Of a DNA stretch of 32,869 bases, positions 10,897 to 17,887 are shown in pieces (the stretch's first letter is position 1; every line of letters begins with the position of its first letter). The DNA comes from Deltaproteobacteria bacterium (lineage in GTDB: Bacteria; Desulfobacterota; Syntrophia; Syntrophales; UBA2210). Below the pieces are notes generated by a model, which worked only from the letters and a program-made list of their open reading frames with translations, was not told where the DNA came from and searched no databases. The stretch covers positions 1 through 32,869 of the forward strand of contig JAFGBH010000046.1 in assembly GCA_016933215.1 (NCBI GenBank), given 5' to 3'. Made by a program: the position numbers and the translations under genes.

Positions 10897-10925
10897 ATTG
10901 GTGGAGGCGGCGGGAGTCGAACCCG
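10897..10925. repeat. attL-type direct repeat (copy of tmRNA 3' end)
   Basis: Identical 29 bp to 17531-17559; followed by ACTCATAG rather than tmRNA sequence. Confidence 0.92.
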
Positions 10926-10971
10926 ACTCATAGCCACTTAACTACATGATATTATTGATACTAAATTTAGC

Positions 10972-10993
10972 TTAGAGGTCATTTAGAGGTCAA
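10972..10993. repeat. TTAGAGGTCATTTAGAGGTCAA: 11-bp tandem motif, candidate integrase/excisionase arm site (left)
   Basis: Same 22 bp, same orientation, at 17474-17495, both just inside the att repeats. Confidence 0.7.
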
Positions 10994-11125
10994 ACCTTGC
11001 TGCTTTATGTCCTTTAATTTGACAGACTTCAATAATCATGCAAAATAGAAACGGCAATCGTGGGGTGAGGGCCTATATCGAAAAAACAGCCTTTACATAA
11101 TCGTAATGTTGTACCATCGGGAAAA

Positions 11126-11569
11126 ATGACTGATCATCTGGAAGTCAGAGAGCGAAGTTGGAACATGAGCCGGATTCGATCTAAAAATACCGGACCGGAG
11201 AGGCAGGTTCGCTCTCTTTTGCATTCCCTCGGTTTTCGCTTTCGCCTGCATAGACGTGACCTGCCCGGATCACCAGATATGGTTCTACCGAAGTACTCAA
11301 CGATCGTGTTTGTTCACGGTTGTTTCTGGCATCAGCATCCCGGATGTAAGGCCGCTTGCAAGCCTAAATCAAACACTGAGTACTGGTTACCAAAGCTTGC
11401 GAGGAACAAGCAACGCGATAGAGAAAACCAGAAAGCACTGAAAGCATTAGGCTGGAATGTCGTTGTTGTGTGGGAGTGCGAATTAAATGATCTTGACAGT
11501 CTCACAACGAAACTGTTAAAAGCTGTCGCTCGTCGCCACGTTTTTGGAAAAGCAGTTTGCAAAGGGTAG
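11126..11569 (+). CDS. vsr: Very short patch repair endonuclease (Vsr)
   Basis: RSWNMSRIRSKNTGPERQVRSLLHSLGFRFRLHRRDLPGSPDMVLPKYSTIVFVHGCFWHQHPGCKAACKPKSNTEYWLPKLARNKQRDRENQKALKALGWNVVVVWECEL, a full Vsr family pattern. Confidence 0.96.
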   Translation: MTDHLEVRERSWNMSRIRSKNTGPERQVRSLLHSLGFRFRLHRRDLPGSPDMVLPKYSTIVFVHGCFWHQHPGCKAACKPKSNTEYWLPKLARNKQRDRENQKALKALGWNVVVVWECELNDLDSLTTKLLKAVARRHVFGKAVCKG

Positions 11570-11579
11570 TCACTGTAAC

Positions 11580-13622
11580 ATGGATTACGTCGAAAAACTG
11601 AACACGATGTTAAAGCCAAAGAGGAATGGAAAACCACTTGTGGTTGACCTTTTTGCTGGCTGCGGCGGTTTAGCCTTAGGCTTTGAGGCACAGGGATTCC
11701 GCACCGTCGGGTTTGAGATGGAAGTTGTCTGTTGTGATACTTATTCGAGAAATCTCATGGGTCAGTGCCATTGCCTAACTCTTACTACGGAAACTGACTT
11801 ACCTACCGCAGCGGTACTGATAGGCGGCCCTCCTTGCCAACCTTTCAGCGTCATTGGAAGGCAAAACGGACTTGCCGATGATAGAGACGGGTTTCCAATT
11901 TTCATATCCGCTGTTAAGCGACTCAACCCAGACCTGTTCCTTTTCGAAAATGTACGTGGTTTGGTTTATCGAAGTAAAACTTATTTTAAGTCAATTCTTC
12001 AAGAACTTAAGGCCTTGAATTACATATTGGAGTTTCAGCTTCTTAATACAGTGCACTTCGGTGTTCCTCAAAAGAGGGAACGACTGATTGTCGTAGGGCA
12101 CAGGGGGAATTTTTCTTTTCCGCAACCTTCGTCGCAACAAATAACAGCAGGCGAGGCTCTTGGGGAGCTAGCGTTTCAGGCACCACCCGAATCGAAATTC
12201 TTGACAGCAAGCATGGACGAGTACATTGCCCGATATGAGAAAGCCTCACAATGCGTTAAACCACGAGACCTACACCTTGATGCCCCCGCCCGAACTCTGA
12301 CGTGCCGGAATCTGGCAGGAGCTACTTCTGATATGCATCGTATACGTCTCCCCAATGGAAGGAGGAGACGCATTCTGATTCGAGAGGCAGCAAGGCTTCA
12401 ATCTTTTCCAGACTGGTTTACATTCCATGGAACAGAAACGCAACAGTTCAACCAGATAGGAAATTCGGTTCCACCTCTTCTTGCTTACCATCTTGCCGGT
12501 GCCGTTCGAAATTACCTCGAAATTTCCGAGCGTTTGTCAACAGCGGAAATTACCTATCGTAATCTTCCAACCCAACTAGAACTTAATTTTGCAATGGAAC
12601 CAAAGGAGGTCTGCATGCCTAAGTTCGTATCACCGGAGAAGAAGCAACCTATAGTTAGAGTTATAAATGAGGCGTTATTCATTCTGTCATCCTTGGGGAT
12701 CCCCTTTGATGGCCTTACGAAACGTCGTCTCGAAAAAATGGCTATGGCTTTCTTAGCTGTCTGTGATGTAAAACTCCCAAAAGAGTGGGACAAGGTGAAA
12801 GATACGACCTCAGGTCGCGCTCTTACCACTCGCCAGATTATTGAATACATCAACCAACATTTTGAAGAGAGAATTTCCAGAGGGTCGTATGATGACATTC
12901 GTCGCAAGGATCTGAAACTGCCTGTTGCTGCCGGAATCATTTTTAGGAGCGCAAATGCTCCCGGAGCTGCAACTAACAACCCAACGCGAGCCTACGCATT
13001 GAACCCTCAATATACTGGGGCAGTATCCTCCTTCGGAACAGAAAACTGGGAAGAAGATATTGAGGAGTTCATGAACGAGCGAGAAACGTTGGCAGAAAGA
13101 TTGAGCAAGACTCGAGACATTGAGCATATACCCGTAGTTCTACCCTCAGGAGTGAAGCTGCAATTCAGCAAAGGAAAGCATAATGAGCTCCAGAAAGCCA
13201 TCATTGAGGAGTTTCTGCCACGCTATGGAGAAGGATGCGAGGTACTATACGTTGGAGATGCGGCGGACAAGTTTCTCCATGTTGCCACAGAGAAACTCAA
13301 AGCCCTTAACTTCTTCGAAATAGCTCATGATGAACTTCCCGATGTAGTAGCTTACAGTTCAGAAAAGAATTGGCTGTATCTAATCGAGGCTGTACATAGC
13401 TCTGGGCCTATTTCAAGCGTTCGGCATGAGGAGTTAATACAGCTAACAGTGAGCTGCACTGCGGAGATTGTCTATGTCACTGCTTTTCTAGACAGAAGTA
13501 CCTTCCGCAAATTTGCTCCCGACATTGCGTGGGAGACCGAGGTTTGGATCGCGGAGTCTCCGGACCACATCATCCACTTCGACGGTAAACGATTCTTGGG
13601 TCCTTACCCGCGGAACCAATAG
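11580..13622 (+). CDS. Fused C5-cytosine DNA methyltransferase (N-term) and BsuBI/PstI-family restriction endonuclease (C-term); ORF 11544..13622, ATG 11580 preferred over TTG 11544
   Basis: MTase motifs: DLFAGCGGLALGFE (I), GGPPCQPFS (IV), FENVRGL (VI), QKRERLIVVG (VIII), RTLTCRNLAG and GNSVPP (IX/X). C-term: GKHNELQKAIIEEFLPRYGEGCEVLYVGDAADK...LPDVVAYSSEKNWLYLIEAVHSSGP...EIVYVTAFLDRSTFRKFAPDIAWETEVWIAESPDHIIHFDGKRFLGP, recognised as BsuBI/PstI restriction endonuclease family. Confidence 0.92.
   Translation: MDYVEKLNTMLKPKRNGKPLVVDLFAGCGGLALGFEAQGFRTVGFEMEVVCCDTYSRNLMGQCHCLTLTTETDLPTAAVLIGGPPCQPFSVIGRQNGLADDRDGFPIFISAVKRLNPDLFLFENVRGLVYRSKTYFKSILQELKALNYILEFQLLNTVHFGVPQKRERLIVVGHRGNFSFPQPSSQQITAGEALGELAFQAPPESKFLTASMDEYIARYEKASQCVKPRDLHLDAPARTLTCRNLAGATSDMHRIRLPNGRRRRILIREAARLQSFPDWFTFHGTETQQFNQIGNSVPPLLAYHLAGAVRNYLEISERLSTAEITYRNLPTQLELNFAMEPKEVCMPKFVSPEKKQPIVRVINEALFILSSLGIPFDGLTKRRLEKMAMAFLAVCDVKLPKEWDKVKDTTSGRALTTRQIIEYINQHFEERISRGSYDDIRRKDLKLPVAAGIIFRSANAPGAATNNPTRAYALNPQYTGAVSSFGTENWEEDIEEFMNERETLAERLSKTRDIEHIPVVLPSGVKLQFSKGKHNELQKAIIEEFLPRYGEGCEVLYVGDAADKFLHVATEKLKALNFFEIAHDELPDVVAYSSEKNWLYLIEAVHSSGPISSVRHEELIQLTVSCTAEIVYVTAFLDRSTFRKFAPDIAWETEVWIAESPDHIIHFDGKRFLGPYPRNQ
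12615..13622 (+). CDS. Possible separately translated BsuBI/PstI-family REase (335 aa) by in-frame internal initiation
   Basis: AAAGGAGGT (12602-12610) 4-5 nt upstream of in-frame ATG 12615; the product MPKFVSPEKKQPIVRVINEAL... has the length expected for a stand-alone BsuBI/PstI-type enzyme. Confidence 0.6.
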   Translation: MPKFVSPEKKQPIVRVINEALFILSSLGIPFDGLTKRRLEKMAMAFLAVCDVKLPKEWDKVKDTTSGRALTTRQIIEYINQHFEERISRGSYDDIRRKDLKLPVAAGIIFRSANAPGAATNNPTRAYALNPQYTGAVSSFGTENWEEDIEEFMNERETLAERLSKTRDIEHIPVVLPSGVKLQFSKGKHNELQKAIIEEFLPRYGEGCEVLYVGDAADKFLHVATEKLKALNFFEIAHDELPDVVAYSSEKNWLYLIEAVHSSGPISSVRHEELIQLTVSCTAEIVYVTAFLDRSTFRKFAPDIAWETEVWIAESPDHIIHFDGKRFLGPYPRNQ

Positions 13623-13869
13623 ACTTTAAGTGGCGCAGCGATTCCCTTTATCATTTTTTGCATACAGCCGAGCTTATGCGGATATGAGCGTATGTTAAAG
13701 GAACCCGGAGCCTAAGTATTAAGAATTAAATAATTTAGTAAAAATCAGCAGGCGAGAGGACGTAATCTTAGTCCAAACATACTCCCCAAACGCCTCAGAA
13801 CGCAAAAATACAAACCCTCTTACGAGAGCCCATAAAGAGCCTACCCCCTCACCTTCACCTATGTATCAA

Positions 13870-13952
13870 ATAGCGATGAGCGCAAATAGTCTTGTCAAGG
13901 CCGACCAAAGTGAGCCGAAGGGTACCCTTGACTTGACTGGCGCTCATGCTAT
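13870..13952. repeat. Large imperfect inverted repeat with an internal palindrome; candidate replication/nicking origin
   Basis: Left arm ATAGCGATGAGCGCAAATAGTCTTGTCAAGG (13870-13900) pairs with CCTTGACTTGACTGGCGCTCATGCTAT (13926-13952); AAGGGTACCCTT palindrome at 13918-13929. Confidence 0.6.
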
Positions 13953-14025
13953 GGGTTTTTGGAAGCAGGGAGGCGGTGAGTATCGATAGATTTAAAAAAA
14001 AATAAAAATAAATCGAAAATAATGC

Positions 14026-14053
14026 TTGACAGCAGAATATATTCTGTTAACAT
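14026..14053 (+). promoter_or_regulatory. Promoter with overlapping operator-like palindrome upstream of RHH gene
   Basis: TTGACA (14026-14031), 16-nt spacer, TAACAT (14048-14053); perfect 14-bp palindrome CAGAATATATTCTG (14033-14046) in the spacer. Confidence 0.6.
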
Positions 14054-14112
14054 TGTTTGCACTTTAGAAATGCATTATGATTTTAATCCATAAACTGATA
14101 GAGGTATTGACC

Positions 14113-14379
14113 ATGAATGAAGACAAAAAATTACAAACAACGGTAGCCTTTCGTTGCCCCAAGGATCTGGCGGATAGGTTAGAAAAGATGGCTGAAAAGG
14201 GCGATATACCACGTTCAAAGCTTATTCTGAACATGGTTGAAACGATGCTTGGTTATTTAGAAGTAACTGAGAAGGTAGGGGTGTTGCACTTGGCAATGCT
14301 TATCCGTGACGCAGGGGATAACCTGAAGGATGTTGCAAAGAAATGGAGAAAAAAACAAAACATTAGTGATTTGACATAA
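14113..14379 (+). CDS. Ribbon-helix-helix (CopG/Arc-like) putative regulator; ORF track start 14077, likely ATG 14113
   Basis: MNEDKKLQTTVAFRCPKDLADRLEKMAEKGDIPRSKLILNMVETML: beta-strand then two-helix pattern typical of RHH proteins. Confidence 0.65.
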   Translation: MNEDKKLQTTVAFRCPKDLADRLEKMAEKGDIPRSKLILNMVETMLGYLEVTEKVGVLHLAMLIRDAGDNLKDVAKKWRKKQNISDLT

Positions 14380-14392
14380 AAAAAAAGAAACG

Positions 14393-14420
14393 CCCGGACT
14401 ATGTTGGAGCATAGCCCGGG
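14393..14420. promoter_or_regulatory. Leader hairpin 1 between RHH gene and rep operon
   Basis: CCCGG-a-CTATG ttggag CATAG-c-CCGGG, 10 bp with one internal mismatch. Confidence 0.6.
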
Positions 14421-14514
14421 ACAGTGATACGTTCAAGATAGACAATGTGATTGGCGTCGCATGCAACTCAAACGCATCGTGGATATTATAACATCATACC
14501 GATGCATGTCAACG

Positions 14515-14546
14515 GCCTCTCTTGAGCGTATCAAGGGAGGCTTTTT
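14515..14546 (+). terminator. Intrinsic terminator whose 3' arm contains the SD of the next gene (attenuator-like)
   Basis: GCCTCTCTTGA-gcgta-TCAAGGGAGGC + TTTTT (11-bp stem with one G.T), ATG follows at 14549; AAGGGAGG lies in the 3' arm. Confidence 0.7.
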
Positions 14547-14548
14547 CT

Positions 14549-14860
14549 ATGGAACAGGCATCATATCATGGTGCTCTGAGGGCCGAGGCGGGACGGTTAC
14601 GGGGCCGGACCGCCAAGGCCCCTAATGAAGCATCACACGAAAAAGATGATAGAAGCACATCTGAGCGTATAAAAGACGCTATTAAGAAGTCAAAATACCT
14701 TACCCCTGTACCTCAGATTGAAGCGGACAGGATTCTTCAAGAATACCGATTAAAAATCGCACAAGATGAAAGTTTAGTAAACGTCCTCTATCCGGTCTTG
14801 GGAAGAATTACGCACACCTACCGATTAGATAAGAAACTAAAGTCGGGGTGTGAGGAATGA
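14549..14860 (+). CDS. Hypothetical small protein preceding Rep (ORF track start 14522, ATG 14549 preferred)
   Basis: MEQASYHGALRAEAGRLRGRTAKAPNEASHEKDD...; stop overlaps the start of the Rep gene (ATGA region 14857-14860). Confidence 0.6.
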   Translation: MEQASYHGALRAEAGRLRGRTAKAPNEASHEKDDRSTSERIKDAIKKSKYLTPVPQIEADRILQEYRLKIAQDESLVNVLYPVLGRITHTYRLDKKLKSGCEE

Positions 14861-15879
14861 ATGCTGAACTAACCCCGATGGAGCGGATCGAAAGACGCAG
14901 AAAACATGTCACTGCTGCTTGTATAAGTGACATATTTTTACATTACCAAGAGGAACGAAGGAAGAAATTTAAAAAGAATATTTTAGACTATGTACGGGAA
15001 AAGAAACAATTTAAGTATGATTGCAAGGAGCTATTTATCATTCATCCCGATATGACCGAGATAAAACAGGTAAATAAGGCAGTTTGTTTCAATACAGAGG
15101 GAAGGAGTGAGGGTATACGGGGAAAAATAACGGAGTTCTCTTCGGGATCACGCCGAAACTTCATTAAGTTTTTCTGCAAGCTGAAAGATAAACCAAAGCT
15201 GTGGCAGGATTTTACCTTTGCAGATGATGTCATGGAGGGGGCATCGATAGGAGAACGACGTAATGTATCAAACAAGGCGTTAAACAGGTTCAGAAGGACC
15301 ATAAAAGAGAAATATCCGTCCTTGTGGATCGTGTACAAAAGGGAATGGGAGCCGCGAAAATCGGGAAAATTGAAGGGTGAATATATACCTCACTTTCACA
15401 TGTTCATAGGGGGGTTGTCAGACAGAGAAGACTATTTGGGATTGGCTGCCAAGTTGGCCGTGATTTGGGTCCATTCCACGAGAACAACGGAGATAGAAAA
15501 GTCATTAAGGGTATCACTCCATGAAAAGAGTTACAGACTTATAGAAAGTCAGGATCTGGCGATTAAATACGCTACCAAGTACGTGACCAAGGGAAATGGA
15601 TTCAAGACCGACGAAAGCATCGGGCGAAGTTGGGGTACGATAGGCGATGTTGTTTTAGGTGATCCTGTCGAAATCGAGGTAACACCGGATGAGGCTGTAA
15701 AAATTAGAAGACTTTTTAGAAAGAAAGTACCGAGAAATCACTATTTACAAAATCAGTTGAGAAACAAAGAAACATCAACTTTTGTCATTATAAAGGCAGA
15801 AGCCGTACTCAGATATTTAGAATATATAAGAATACAGCATGAGAACGAAGTACTGACCTACTTTAAAAAGGTGGCTTGA
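14857..15879 (+). CDS. HUH-superfamily rolling-circle replication initiator-like protein
   Basis: HUH-like PHFHMFIGG preceded by basic/aromatic strand, and Y-motif AIKYATKYVTKG (YxxKYxxK), the pattern of plasmid/phage Rep proteins. Confidence 0.75.
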   Translation: MNAELTPMERIERRRKHVTAACISDIFLHYQEERRKKFKKNILDYVREKKQFKYDCKELFIIHPDMTEIKQVNKAVCFNTEGRSEGIRGKITEFSSGSRRNFIKFFCKLKDKPKLWQDFTFADDVMEGASIGERRNVSNKALNRFRRTIKEKYPSLWIVYKREWEPRKSGKLKGEYIPHFHMFIGGLSDREDYLGLAAKLAVIWVHSTRTTEIEKSLRVSLHEKSYRLIESQDLAIKYATKYVTKGNGFKTDESIGRSWGTIGDVVLGDPVEIEVTPDEAVKIRRLFRKKVPRNHYLQNQLRNKETSTFVIIKAEAVLRYLEYIRIQHENEVLTYFKKVA

Positions 15880-15931
15880 TTTGAACTCGTCACTCGTACA
15901 TAATAACCCCCAATTTAGAGGGGGTGACTAT

Positions 15932-17014
15932 ATGGGCGGTTCTATATGCTACCACAAGCCGGCAAATCGTTGGTATATTCAACTTTATTGGCAGGGAAAG
16001 CGCTATAAGATATGGCGGTATAACGGTGACCCTATTTGGCATGAAAAGACGGCTGAGAAGCTTTTAAACAAGATAAGGGCTGAGATAGACAACGGAGATT
16101 TTCAACCTAAGACATACTTCCCTGATTCCCCTCTTTCAATTAACCAATATTCAAAACAATGGCTAAACGTTATAGACGTTAAGCCGAATACCCTCAAAGA
16201 TTATAAGTACTCTGTAAACAGCTTCATTATACCGTTTTTCAAGAACAAGGATCTTCGTCATATCCGATACAACGATATTGTAGAATTTCATAAGTGGATA
16301 CCACGATCCGAGAAAGGGAAATACAACGCAGTTTCATGCCTTCGGACAATGCTTAGATGGGCATGGAGAAACGAGGATATTTCGAAAGTACCACCCTTCC
16401 CCAGACTGAGCCAGGGTGAACCACCAGAGATAGAATATCTGACCTTAGAGCAACAGGAGATGGTTTTAAAACACATTCCTGAAAGGCACAGAGCCATATT
16501 CATGTTTGGGATGGAATACGGGGTAAGGATAGGAGAACTAAGGGCTATTCAATGGGATTGCGTTCAAAATGATGAACTGGTCATTAAAAGGGCGTTTGCC
16601 GATAATCAGTTGATGGAAAGTACCAAAACAAATAGGTCAAGGGTTCTTGGATTAACACCCTATGCAAAGAAAATATTGCAATCTTTGCCCATGACATCGA
16701 ATACCTTTGTTTTTGTAAGGGAAGATGGGAGGTCATATACGAATAAAAACCTCAACAAAATATGGTCTGAGGCGTGCAAAAAGGCCGAAATAAAGAAAAT
16801 CAAGTTATACAATGCCGTAAGACATTCCCTTGGATGCCAGTTACTGGATAAGGGCTTTGAATTTGATAAGGTGCAAAAGGTTCTCGGTCATACAAGACCG
16901 GAAATGACCCGAAGATATGCCAGACGGTCAAACGAGAGCATAACCGAAATGTTGGTTGATAGACGTGCCAAGGTTATTGAATTTAGTGTTAATGAAATGA
17001 ATAAGAACTCATAG
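15932..17014 (+). CDS. int: Tyrosine recombinase/integrase (ORF track start TTG 15881, ATG 15932 preferred)
   Basis: Core-binding SAM-like domain LSINQYSKQWLNVIDVKPNTLKDYKYSVNSFI; catalytic G-x-R (EYGVRIGELRAIQW), VRHSLG, LGHTRPEMTRRYARR. Confidence 0.93.
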   Translation: MGGSICYHKPANRWYIQLYWQGKRYKIWRYNGDPIWHEKTAEKLLNKIRAEIDNGDFQPKTYFPDSPLSINQYSKQWLNVIDVKPNTLKDYKYSVNSFIIPFFKNKDLRHIRYNDIVEFHKWIPRSEKGKYNAVSCLRTMLRWAWRNEDISKVPPFPRLSQGEPPEIEYLTLEQQEMVLKHIPERHRAIFMFGMEYGVRIGELRAIQWDCVQNDELVIKRAFADNQLMESTKTNRSRVLGLTPYAKKILQSLPMTSNTFVFVREDGRSYTNKNLNKIWSEACKKAEIKKIKLYNAVRHSLGCQLLDKGFEFDKVQKVLGHTRPEMTRRYARRSNESITEMLVDRRAKVIEFSVNEMNKNS

Positions 17015-17066
17015 TATTTTTGTCAAATCGGGCATTAGGTGCATGCAGTAAATGTTACTCTGTGTT

Positions 17067-17456
17067 TTATTTGTCTTCTATTGAAAATTCTATTTTTGTT
17101 ATTTTGGTTCTTTCAGTGGCTGTGGGAACTCTTTGAACGCTTGCCCCTACTGAGCCTCCATCAAGTTTTATTTCCCCATCTGCGGATATTCCCTGAAAAG
17201 CAAAGTCCCCTATCTTTGATATTTCACTTTCAGTCATTTTTATAACTATTTTGTCATTATTCTTATCATATTTATAATTTTCTTTTATAAGGTCAAAACA
17301 GGAGGTTAGAATGTTGGCATCTTGTTTTGTTACTAATGGGGCTACAAGACCTGATATTACGGAACTTTCTGTAGAGAGGGGAAATGTAAAAGATTTTGGC
17401 GTACCATCTGTTGGAGTTGCGATTACAGAGAATTCATCATCTTTATATTTTGACAT
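17067..17456 (-). CDS. Hypothetical protein (island end)
   Basis: 129-aa ORF convergent with integrase; coherent composition (MSKYKDDEFSVIATPTDGTPKSFTFPLSTES...), no family recognised. Confidence 0.5.
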   Translation of the reverse strand: MSKYKDDEFSVIATPTDGTPKSFTFPLSTESSVISGLVAPLVTKQDANILTSCFDLIKENYKYDKNNDKIVIKMTESEISKIGDFAFQGISADGEIKLDGGSVGASVQRVPTATERTKITKIEFSIEDK

Positions 17457-17473
17457 GACAGATTCGCTCCTTT

Positions 17474-17495
17474 TTAGAGGTCATTTAGAGGTCAA
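17474..17495. repeat. TTAGAGGTCATTTAGAGGTCAA, candidate arm site (right)
   Basis: Identical to 10972-10993. Confidence 0.7.
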
Positions 17496-17530
17496 TAATA
17501 AAAGTATAACTAATTAATATTATTGCATAA

Positions 17531-17559
17531 ATTGGTGGAGGCGGCGGGAGTCGAACCCG
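17531..17559. repeat. attR-type direct repeat, overlapping tmRNA 3' end
   Basis: Identical to 10897-10925. Confidence 0.92.
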
Positions 17560-17887
17560 CGTCCGGAAACATTCCACTGCAGCTTCTACGTGCGTATCCT
17601 CTGATTTAAATTCGCGCTTGAGAACTCCCAGGGGAAGGATTAATCACGCGCTATCTCGATAGGGTTTCACCTTTCTCCCCTCGAGAATGGAAGATCGGCA
17701 ATCCTGCCTCGTTGACGCCCTCATCTGACCCGACAGGCAAGATCAGGAGAACGGAAGCCGACTAAGCGGCTACAGCGTAATCGTAGTTGTCTGCGATTAA
17801 AGTTTTCCTACCTATTTAACGAGGCCTGTAGGAACCTCGGCACGCTTCTACAGCTTCAACTATCCCCGTCGAAACCGTATCGCCCCC
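17533..17887 (-). ncRNA. ssrA: tmRNA; tag ORF at 17762-17794 encodes ADNYDYAVAA
   Basis: Reverse strand 5' GGGGGCGATACGGTTTCGACGGGG ... GCAGACAACTACGATTACGCTGTAGCCGCTTAG ... GGACGCGGGTTCGACTCCCGCCGCCTCCACCA 3'. Confidence 0.97.

Follow-up and report, generated by a model that had tools for sequence, protein, structure and literature searches.

A cytosine C5 methyltransferase (MTase, M) and a BsuBI/PstI-type restriction endonuclease (REase, R) are fused in one gene of the window, i.e., the whole stretch of 32,869 nucleotides that was analyzed, and this gene probably represents a one-gene Type II (IIC-style) restriction–modification (R-M) system, which combines M with a PstI-like R and makes the fusion as well as free R. 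The gene is present in a single copy in its own genome, and an alternative upstream start (TTG 11544) would extend the product to 692 aa (features in Table 1). The original prediction, which described a single frame with C5-MTase motifs followed by a complete BsuBI/PstI REase, agrees with the Pfam domains and with motif conservation, both computed directly. In the profile search that it had proposed, the three Pfam domains were complete and scored far above the curated cut-offs. The C5 motifs PCQ (C86), ENV (123–125), QRR (Q164-R166-R168), and GN (294–295) occur in this order, which identifies a C5-cytosine MTase, and are at least 95% conserved among 68 relatives. The C-terminal half belongs to the BsuBI/PstI REase family by matches to PF17728 and PF06616 above cut-off and by its PD...E and WETEVW motifs. 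Loss of its catalytic residues had been named as a possible objection; D560, P587-D588, E603, and W651-E-T-E-V-W656 are conserved in the alignment, i.e., in 63 C5-partnered and 13 adenine-partnered relatives. Among solved proteins, phmmer matched residues 380–678 to SdaI (2ixs; 4e-49), and M.HaeIII and M.HhaI were nearest to the N-terminal half.

Table 1. Coordinates of the fused gene, its parts, and associated features. Positions refer to the window unless a locus is given.
Feature	Position	Strand	Details
Fused C5-cytosine MTase/BsuBI-PstI REase gene	11580..13622	+	680 aa, one open frame from ATG to stop
C5 MTase domain, residues 21-309	11640..12506	+	Pfam PF00145 DNA_methylase 2.2e-58; NCBIfam TIGR00675 dcm
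Disordered linker, residues 333-343	12576..12608	+	AlphaFold2 pLDDT <50 here only
Internal Shine-Dalgarno AAAGGAGGT	12602..12610	+	dG -12.3 with anti-SD
Predicted free 335-aa REase from internal ATG, codon 346	12615..13622	+	inferred from SD, size, and start position
REase N-terminal HTH domain BsuBI_PstI_RE_N, residues 361-506	12660..13097	+	Pfam PF17728 2.7e-29
REase catalytic domain BsuBI_PstI_RE, residues 517-669	13128..13586	+	Pfam PF06616 4.8e-61; D560, P587-D588, E603
Left attachment repeat, 28 nt, copy of tmRNA 3' end	10898..10925		exact repeat
vsr, T:G mismatch endonuclease	11126..11569	+	TIGR00632 1.9e-43; Pfam Vsr; 10 bp upstream of fusion
Replication-protein-like gene	14857..15879	+	weak REP_ORF2-G2P match, Pfam 0.0044, below cut-off
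Tyrosine integrase	15881..17014	+	Pfam PF00589 3.4e-23
Right attachment repeat, tmRNA gene 3' end	17532..17559		28-nt exact repeat
Related elements with vsr, HNH endonuclease, and other C5 MTase	L168 1353-6625; L167 1822-6780		rep and integrase homologues

Structure prediction bore out two well-folded halves with a disordered linker between them. The AlphaFold2 model of the fusion reached a mean pLDDT of 89.9, with most of both domains near or above 90; its pTM was low (0.53), so that the relative placement of the two halves is uncertain. Foldseek searches with the predicted model found SdaI, M.HaeIII, and M.HhaI. In split relatives, the end of M and the start of R coincide with the two ends of the window's linker. 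Split M proteins terminate in, e.g., NLPDQLVLEIP or IPVQLSLPF, whereas the window's protein runs NLPTQLELNF-AMEPKEVC-MPKFV, and the extra linker residues suggest that the gap which once separated M and R is now read through.

Single-frame fusions total 13 including that of the window; the other 12 are 48–71% identical to it and come from several phyla, and the sequence of one of the 13 (L025) stops at a contig end. Locus L002, from genome G110 of the same order and another family, carries a single-frame fusion with 70% identity, and further single-frame homologues are 60–71% (L013–L018) and 62–63% identical (L173 and L174). Because these full-length one-frame homologues exist in other genomes, a sequencing error that hides a stop codon or frameshift is ruled out. 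A unique fusion is likewise ruled out by the other one-frame and two-gene relatives. A C5 MTase adjoins the REase subfamily at no fewer than 74 loci (one genome per species; window and L002 included) in at least 13 named phyla, Bacteroidota being the commonest. M and R are encoded by two tandem genes at 63 or more of these loci, some of which are frameshifted, and share one frame at 11 or more, the counts of this main scan being lower bounds and not prevalence. The fusion is a minority state of a widespread, mostly two-gene system; the architecture, predicted to be unusual, is so among described Type IIC enzymes, but the pairing of a C5 MTase with a BsuBI/PstI REase is not. At the split loci L016, L019–L024, and L029, R lies in the frame of M with a single stop codon between them, and stop read-through is possible in these members. 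Directly downstream of the G110 fusion, a second BsuBI/PstI REase fragment was found (L002 1237-1488, minus strand), which is 55% identical to the C-terminus and possibly a relic of an earlier PstI-type system. Viral spread was rejected as an explanation: no relative was found in viral contigs with the two patterns used, and three phage records gave REase matches of 35–54%.

The fused gene contains a second candidate start. Positions 12602–12614 read AAAGGAGGTCTGC and are followed by ATG 12615, and the Shine-Dalgarno (SD) sequence ahead of this ATG is stronger, in terms of anti-SD duplex dG, than that of any other in-frame ATG/GTG in the ORF (16 in total). Free-standing relatives comprise ~330 aa and start at the place matching ATG 12615. 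An internal SD was also the strongest in the ORF of L002 (GGGAGG before GTG, dG −11.7), L013 (AAGGAG before ATG, dG −8.8), L173, and L174; it ranked second in L018 and L026 and third in L014. When sites elsewhere in the same ORFs were resampled (10 ORFs), not one of 20,000 draws equalled the internal SDs in strength. The gene probably yields the fusion and, in addition, a free REase of 335 aa, and the original prediction of a self-contained protein may be incomplete in that the strongest ribosome-binding site of the ORF coincides with the expected start of a separate REase. Dual expression does not extend to all fusions, because L015, L017, L027, and L028 were without a strong internal SD when their in-frame starts were scored. 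As these four fusions indicate that a fusion can stand alone, the fused ORF could also be the sole product of the gene, i.e., an obligate Type IIC enzyme with M and R at 1:1, restriction limited by dimer assembly, and the internal SD as a leftover. The engineered RM.Eco29kI, which retains both activities in one chain (PMC3039593), would fit such an enzyme. Nevertheless, we consider a sole product unlikely, since in the window and in four other fusions no in-frame start of the ORF has a stronger SD than the internal one, and since the three closest fusions keep it despite differing residues over it (KEV in the window, REE in L002, and KEK in L013).

For the preferred reading, a fusion accompanied by free R, the following course of events can be envisaged. 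The N-terminal half would methylate cytosine at C5 within a PstI-like site, most likely CTGCAG, and the C-terminal half, an REase of the PstI/SdaI type that has an HTH domain of its own for recognition, would cleave the unmethylated site. The two halves would fold and act independently of each other, joined by a flexible linker that arose by read-through of the old M/R gap, and the former ribosome-binding site and start of R would persist, giving free R in addition to the M-R fusion. M would be active as a monomer and R would have to pair, so that methylation would precede restriction. One-chain systems should pass through a stage of methylation without restriction, since REases usually must dimerise (PMC12707154). 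Free R from the internal start would then shift the balance between methylation and restriction, and the neighbouring Vsr would repair T:G mismatches that result from deaminated methylated cytosine. Going further, we tentatively suggest a 'leaky fusion', to which we give somewhat less than an even chance: one lost stop codon would have created a gene that yields the M-R fusion plus free R from the kept internal start, with three assembly states (MR-MR, MR-R, and R-R) and a built-in M:R setting, and members without the internal site would represent a step to an obligate one-protein system. If this holds true, the family would offer a snapshot of Type IIC enzymes evolving out of two-gene Type II systems.

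The phylogeny of the family points to a change of partner and to repeated fusion. REases with a C5 partner group in a single clade (100% support), the exceptions being L037 and L062, where a C5 MTase adjoins an adenine-type REase. Each of the 13 more remote BsuBI/PstI REases included in the tree adjoins or is fused to an MTase with an NPPY motif, and among plasmid-borne relatives the neighbours are Eco57I-type or other SAM-dependent MTases. As the C5-partnered REases form one clade, the C5 pairing probably arose by partner change early in one REase lineage. At L037 (4947-7931), an adenine-type BsuBI/PstI REase is flanked by two C5 MTases, and no NPPY MTase is found in 12.5 kb; this apparent partner swap suggests that the partners have a common site. 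Concerning the fusions, a tree of joined M and R sequences rejected a single clade of all fusions (p-AU 1.8e-54), which rules out a single origin for every one of them, and one origin for the ten fusions with a YRNLP-type linker was not rejected (p 0.23). Fusion therefore occurred at least three times, i.e., in the YRNLP-type group, in Lachnospiraceae (L026), and in Acidobacteriota (L027 and L028). This number rests solely on the clade test because the count of forced changes on the tree dropped from at least four with fewer members to three with more members.

The fusion is cargo of an integrative element of 6,634 bp (~6.6 kb) that is inserted at the 3' end of the tmRNA gene (element, 10898-17559; tmRNA gene, 17533-17887, minus strand). 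With an integrase beside the tmRNA gene and the 3' end of that gene directly repeated at the opposite border, the element qualifies as one integrated in the tmRNA gene, and a 22-nt repeat is located just inside each end (10972-10993 and 17474-17495). The element contains vsr, the fusion, an RHH gene, a replication-protein-like gene with homologues in three related genomes, the tyrosine integrase, and small ORFs. Vsr was assigned by TIGR00632 with 147.5 bits against a curated cut-off of 97.85. G110 has a broken vsr at the matching upstream place, and among the family loci listed, vsr lies near four only, one of which is decayed. Related elements with rep and integrase homologues occur in G043, G079, and G033, both element ends being seen in G043 and G033 only. 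The elements of G043 and G079 carry vsr (52–53% identical), a C5 MTase, and an HNH endonuclease in place of the fusion, and that of G033 (L169 1263-7140), whose integrase is 76% identical, carries a HicB-like gene. Carriage of a C5 R-M module together with vsr seems to recur in this type of element.

The recognition site was approached through Markov expectations with control genomes. Across the 756 kb that surround 72 carrier loci, no other of the 64 six-base palindromes was avoided as much as CTGCAG (108 seen, 229 expected). Its observed/expected ratio was 0.47 in carriers (bootstrap 0.37–0.57) versus 0.86 in non-carriers (0.71–1.00; controls not phylum-matched throughout), with a permutation p of 0.0005 for the difference. 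CAGCTG revealed no difference between carriers and non-carriers (p 0.47); the ratios of CTCGAG and GTCGAC also differed, which could be due to several R-M systems per carrier. The element lacks CTGCAG, and the rest of the window has 11 occurrences. Raw per-genome CTGCAG counts were dropped as evidence for the site, since they differ just as much among Spirosoma relatives. The avoidance in carriers suggests a PstI-like target, and CTGCAG is probably the site of the fusion by homology and avoidance.

The host genome itself shows no avoidance of CTGCAG (ratio 1.00), which fits a recent arrival and equally a weak or silent system. The latter would apply if the fusion impaired one activity and the gene persisted as element cargo or as methylase only, and the broken vsr and the REase fragment beside the G110 fusion would be in line with such decay. 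Arguing against it, both catalytic sets are intact and free of stops although the proteins differ by ~30% from one species to another, and avoidance of CTGCAG is strong in G110 (ratio 0.11, rank 1), which makes a decaying or silenced system rather improbable. PstI/SdaI-type REases cut unmodified DNA. The REase being of this type, and the family being a standard tandem M-R system with site avoidance in the phyla counted above, we give very little credence to a modification-dependent (Type IV-like) cutter of foreign methylated DNA or an epigenetic MTase with an idle REase.

With close relatives that span separate genes, same-frame genes one stop apart, fusions with an internal start, and fusions without one, the family is a natural test set for the origin of Type IIC by joining two-gene systems. 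It also shows PstI-type REases switching partner between adenine and C5 MTases, and supplies candidate enzymes for m5C marking of a site that is probably CTGCAG. In a survey of 2261 genomes, only 0.9% of Type IIC systems resembled two-gene systems, from which the authors judged fusions of this kind to be uncommon (Oliveira et al. 2014, PMC4176335), and engineering has shown that joining a two-gene system into one protein is feasible (Mokrishcheva et al., PMC3039593). No description of a natural C5-MTase/REase fusion was found in the papers searched; REBASE may well list such fusions as predictions. Judged from its sequence, the fusion would be a natural C5-MTase Type IIC enzyme, of which we otherwise found only the engineered RM.Eco29kI described.

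Compared with known systems, the fusion belongs by its domain content to Type IIC (combined), with REase and MTase domains in one polypeptide in several species, and not to Type IIG, as its MTase is of the C5 class (PF00145, TIGR00675) and its REase has its own HTH domain. The cytosine MTase of the Eco29kI system is of the C5 type. RM.Eco29kI was obtained by removing the stop between the MTase and REase of the two-gene system, and its authors placed the protein in Type IIC and considered that natural cases could exist (Mokrishcheva et al. 2011, PMC3039593). Unlike the window's fusion, it is man-made, has the order R-M and a GIY-YIG nuclease, and targets CCGCGG. The Type IIC/IIG enzymes Eco57I, MmeI, and BtgZI likewise combine endonuclease and MTase in one protein; the MTase of described Type IIC enzymes is nearly always gamma-class adenine-specific, with one alpha-class exception named, and most have an N-terminal nuclease, whereas the alpha-class MTase of BtgZI comes first (PMC4081073). 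In most of them, a single specificity module serves both functions and cleavage takes place at a distance (PMC4081073), whereas the fusion has a recognition part per half and its REase family cuts inside a palindrome. Closer in its nuclease is the adenine-MTase/BsuBI-PstI fusion PDLC03359 of PADLOC (840 aa), a single chain with a C-terminal REase of the same family, the MTase of which is of the NPPY adenine type and not C5; a genome of the same order as the window encodes a match to it nearly from end to end (L003 2-2437, minus strand). PstI, BsuBI, and SdaI/SbfI have the REase family and catalytic residues in common with the fusion, but are free proteins, and the relatives examined outside the C5 clade adjoin an adenine-type MTase.
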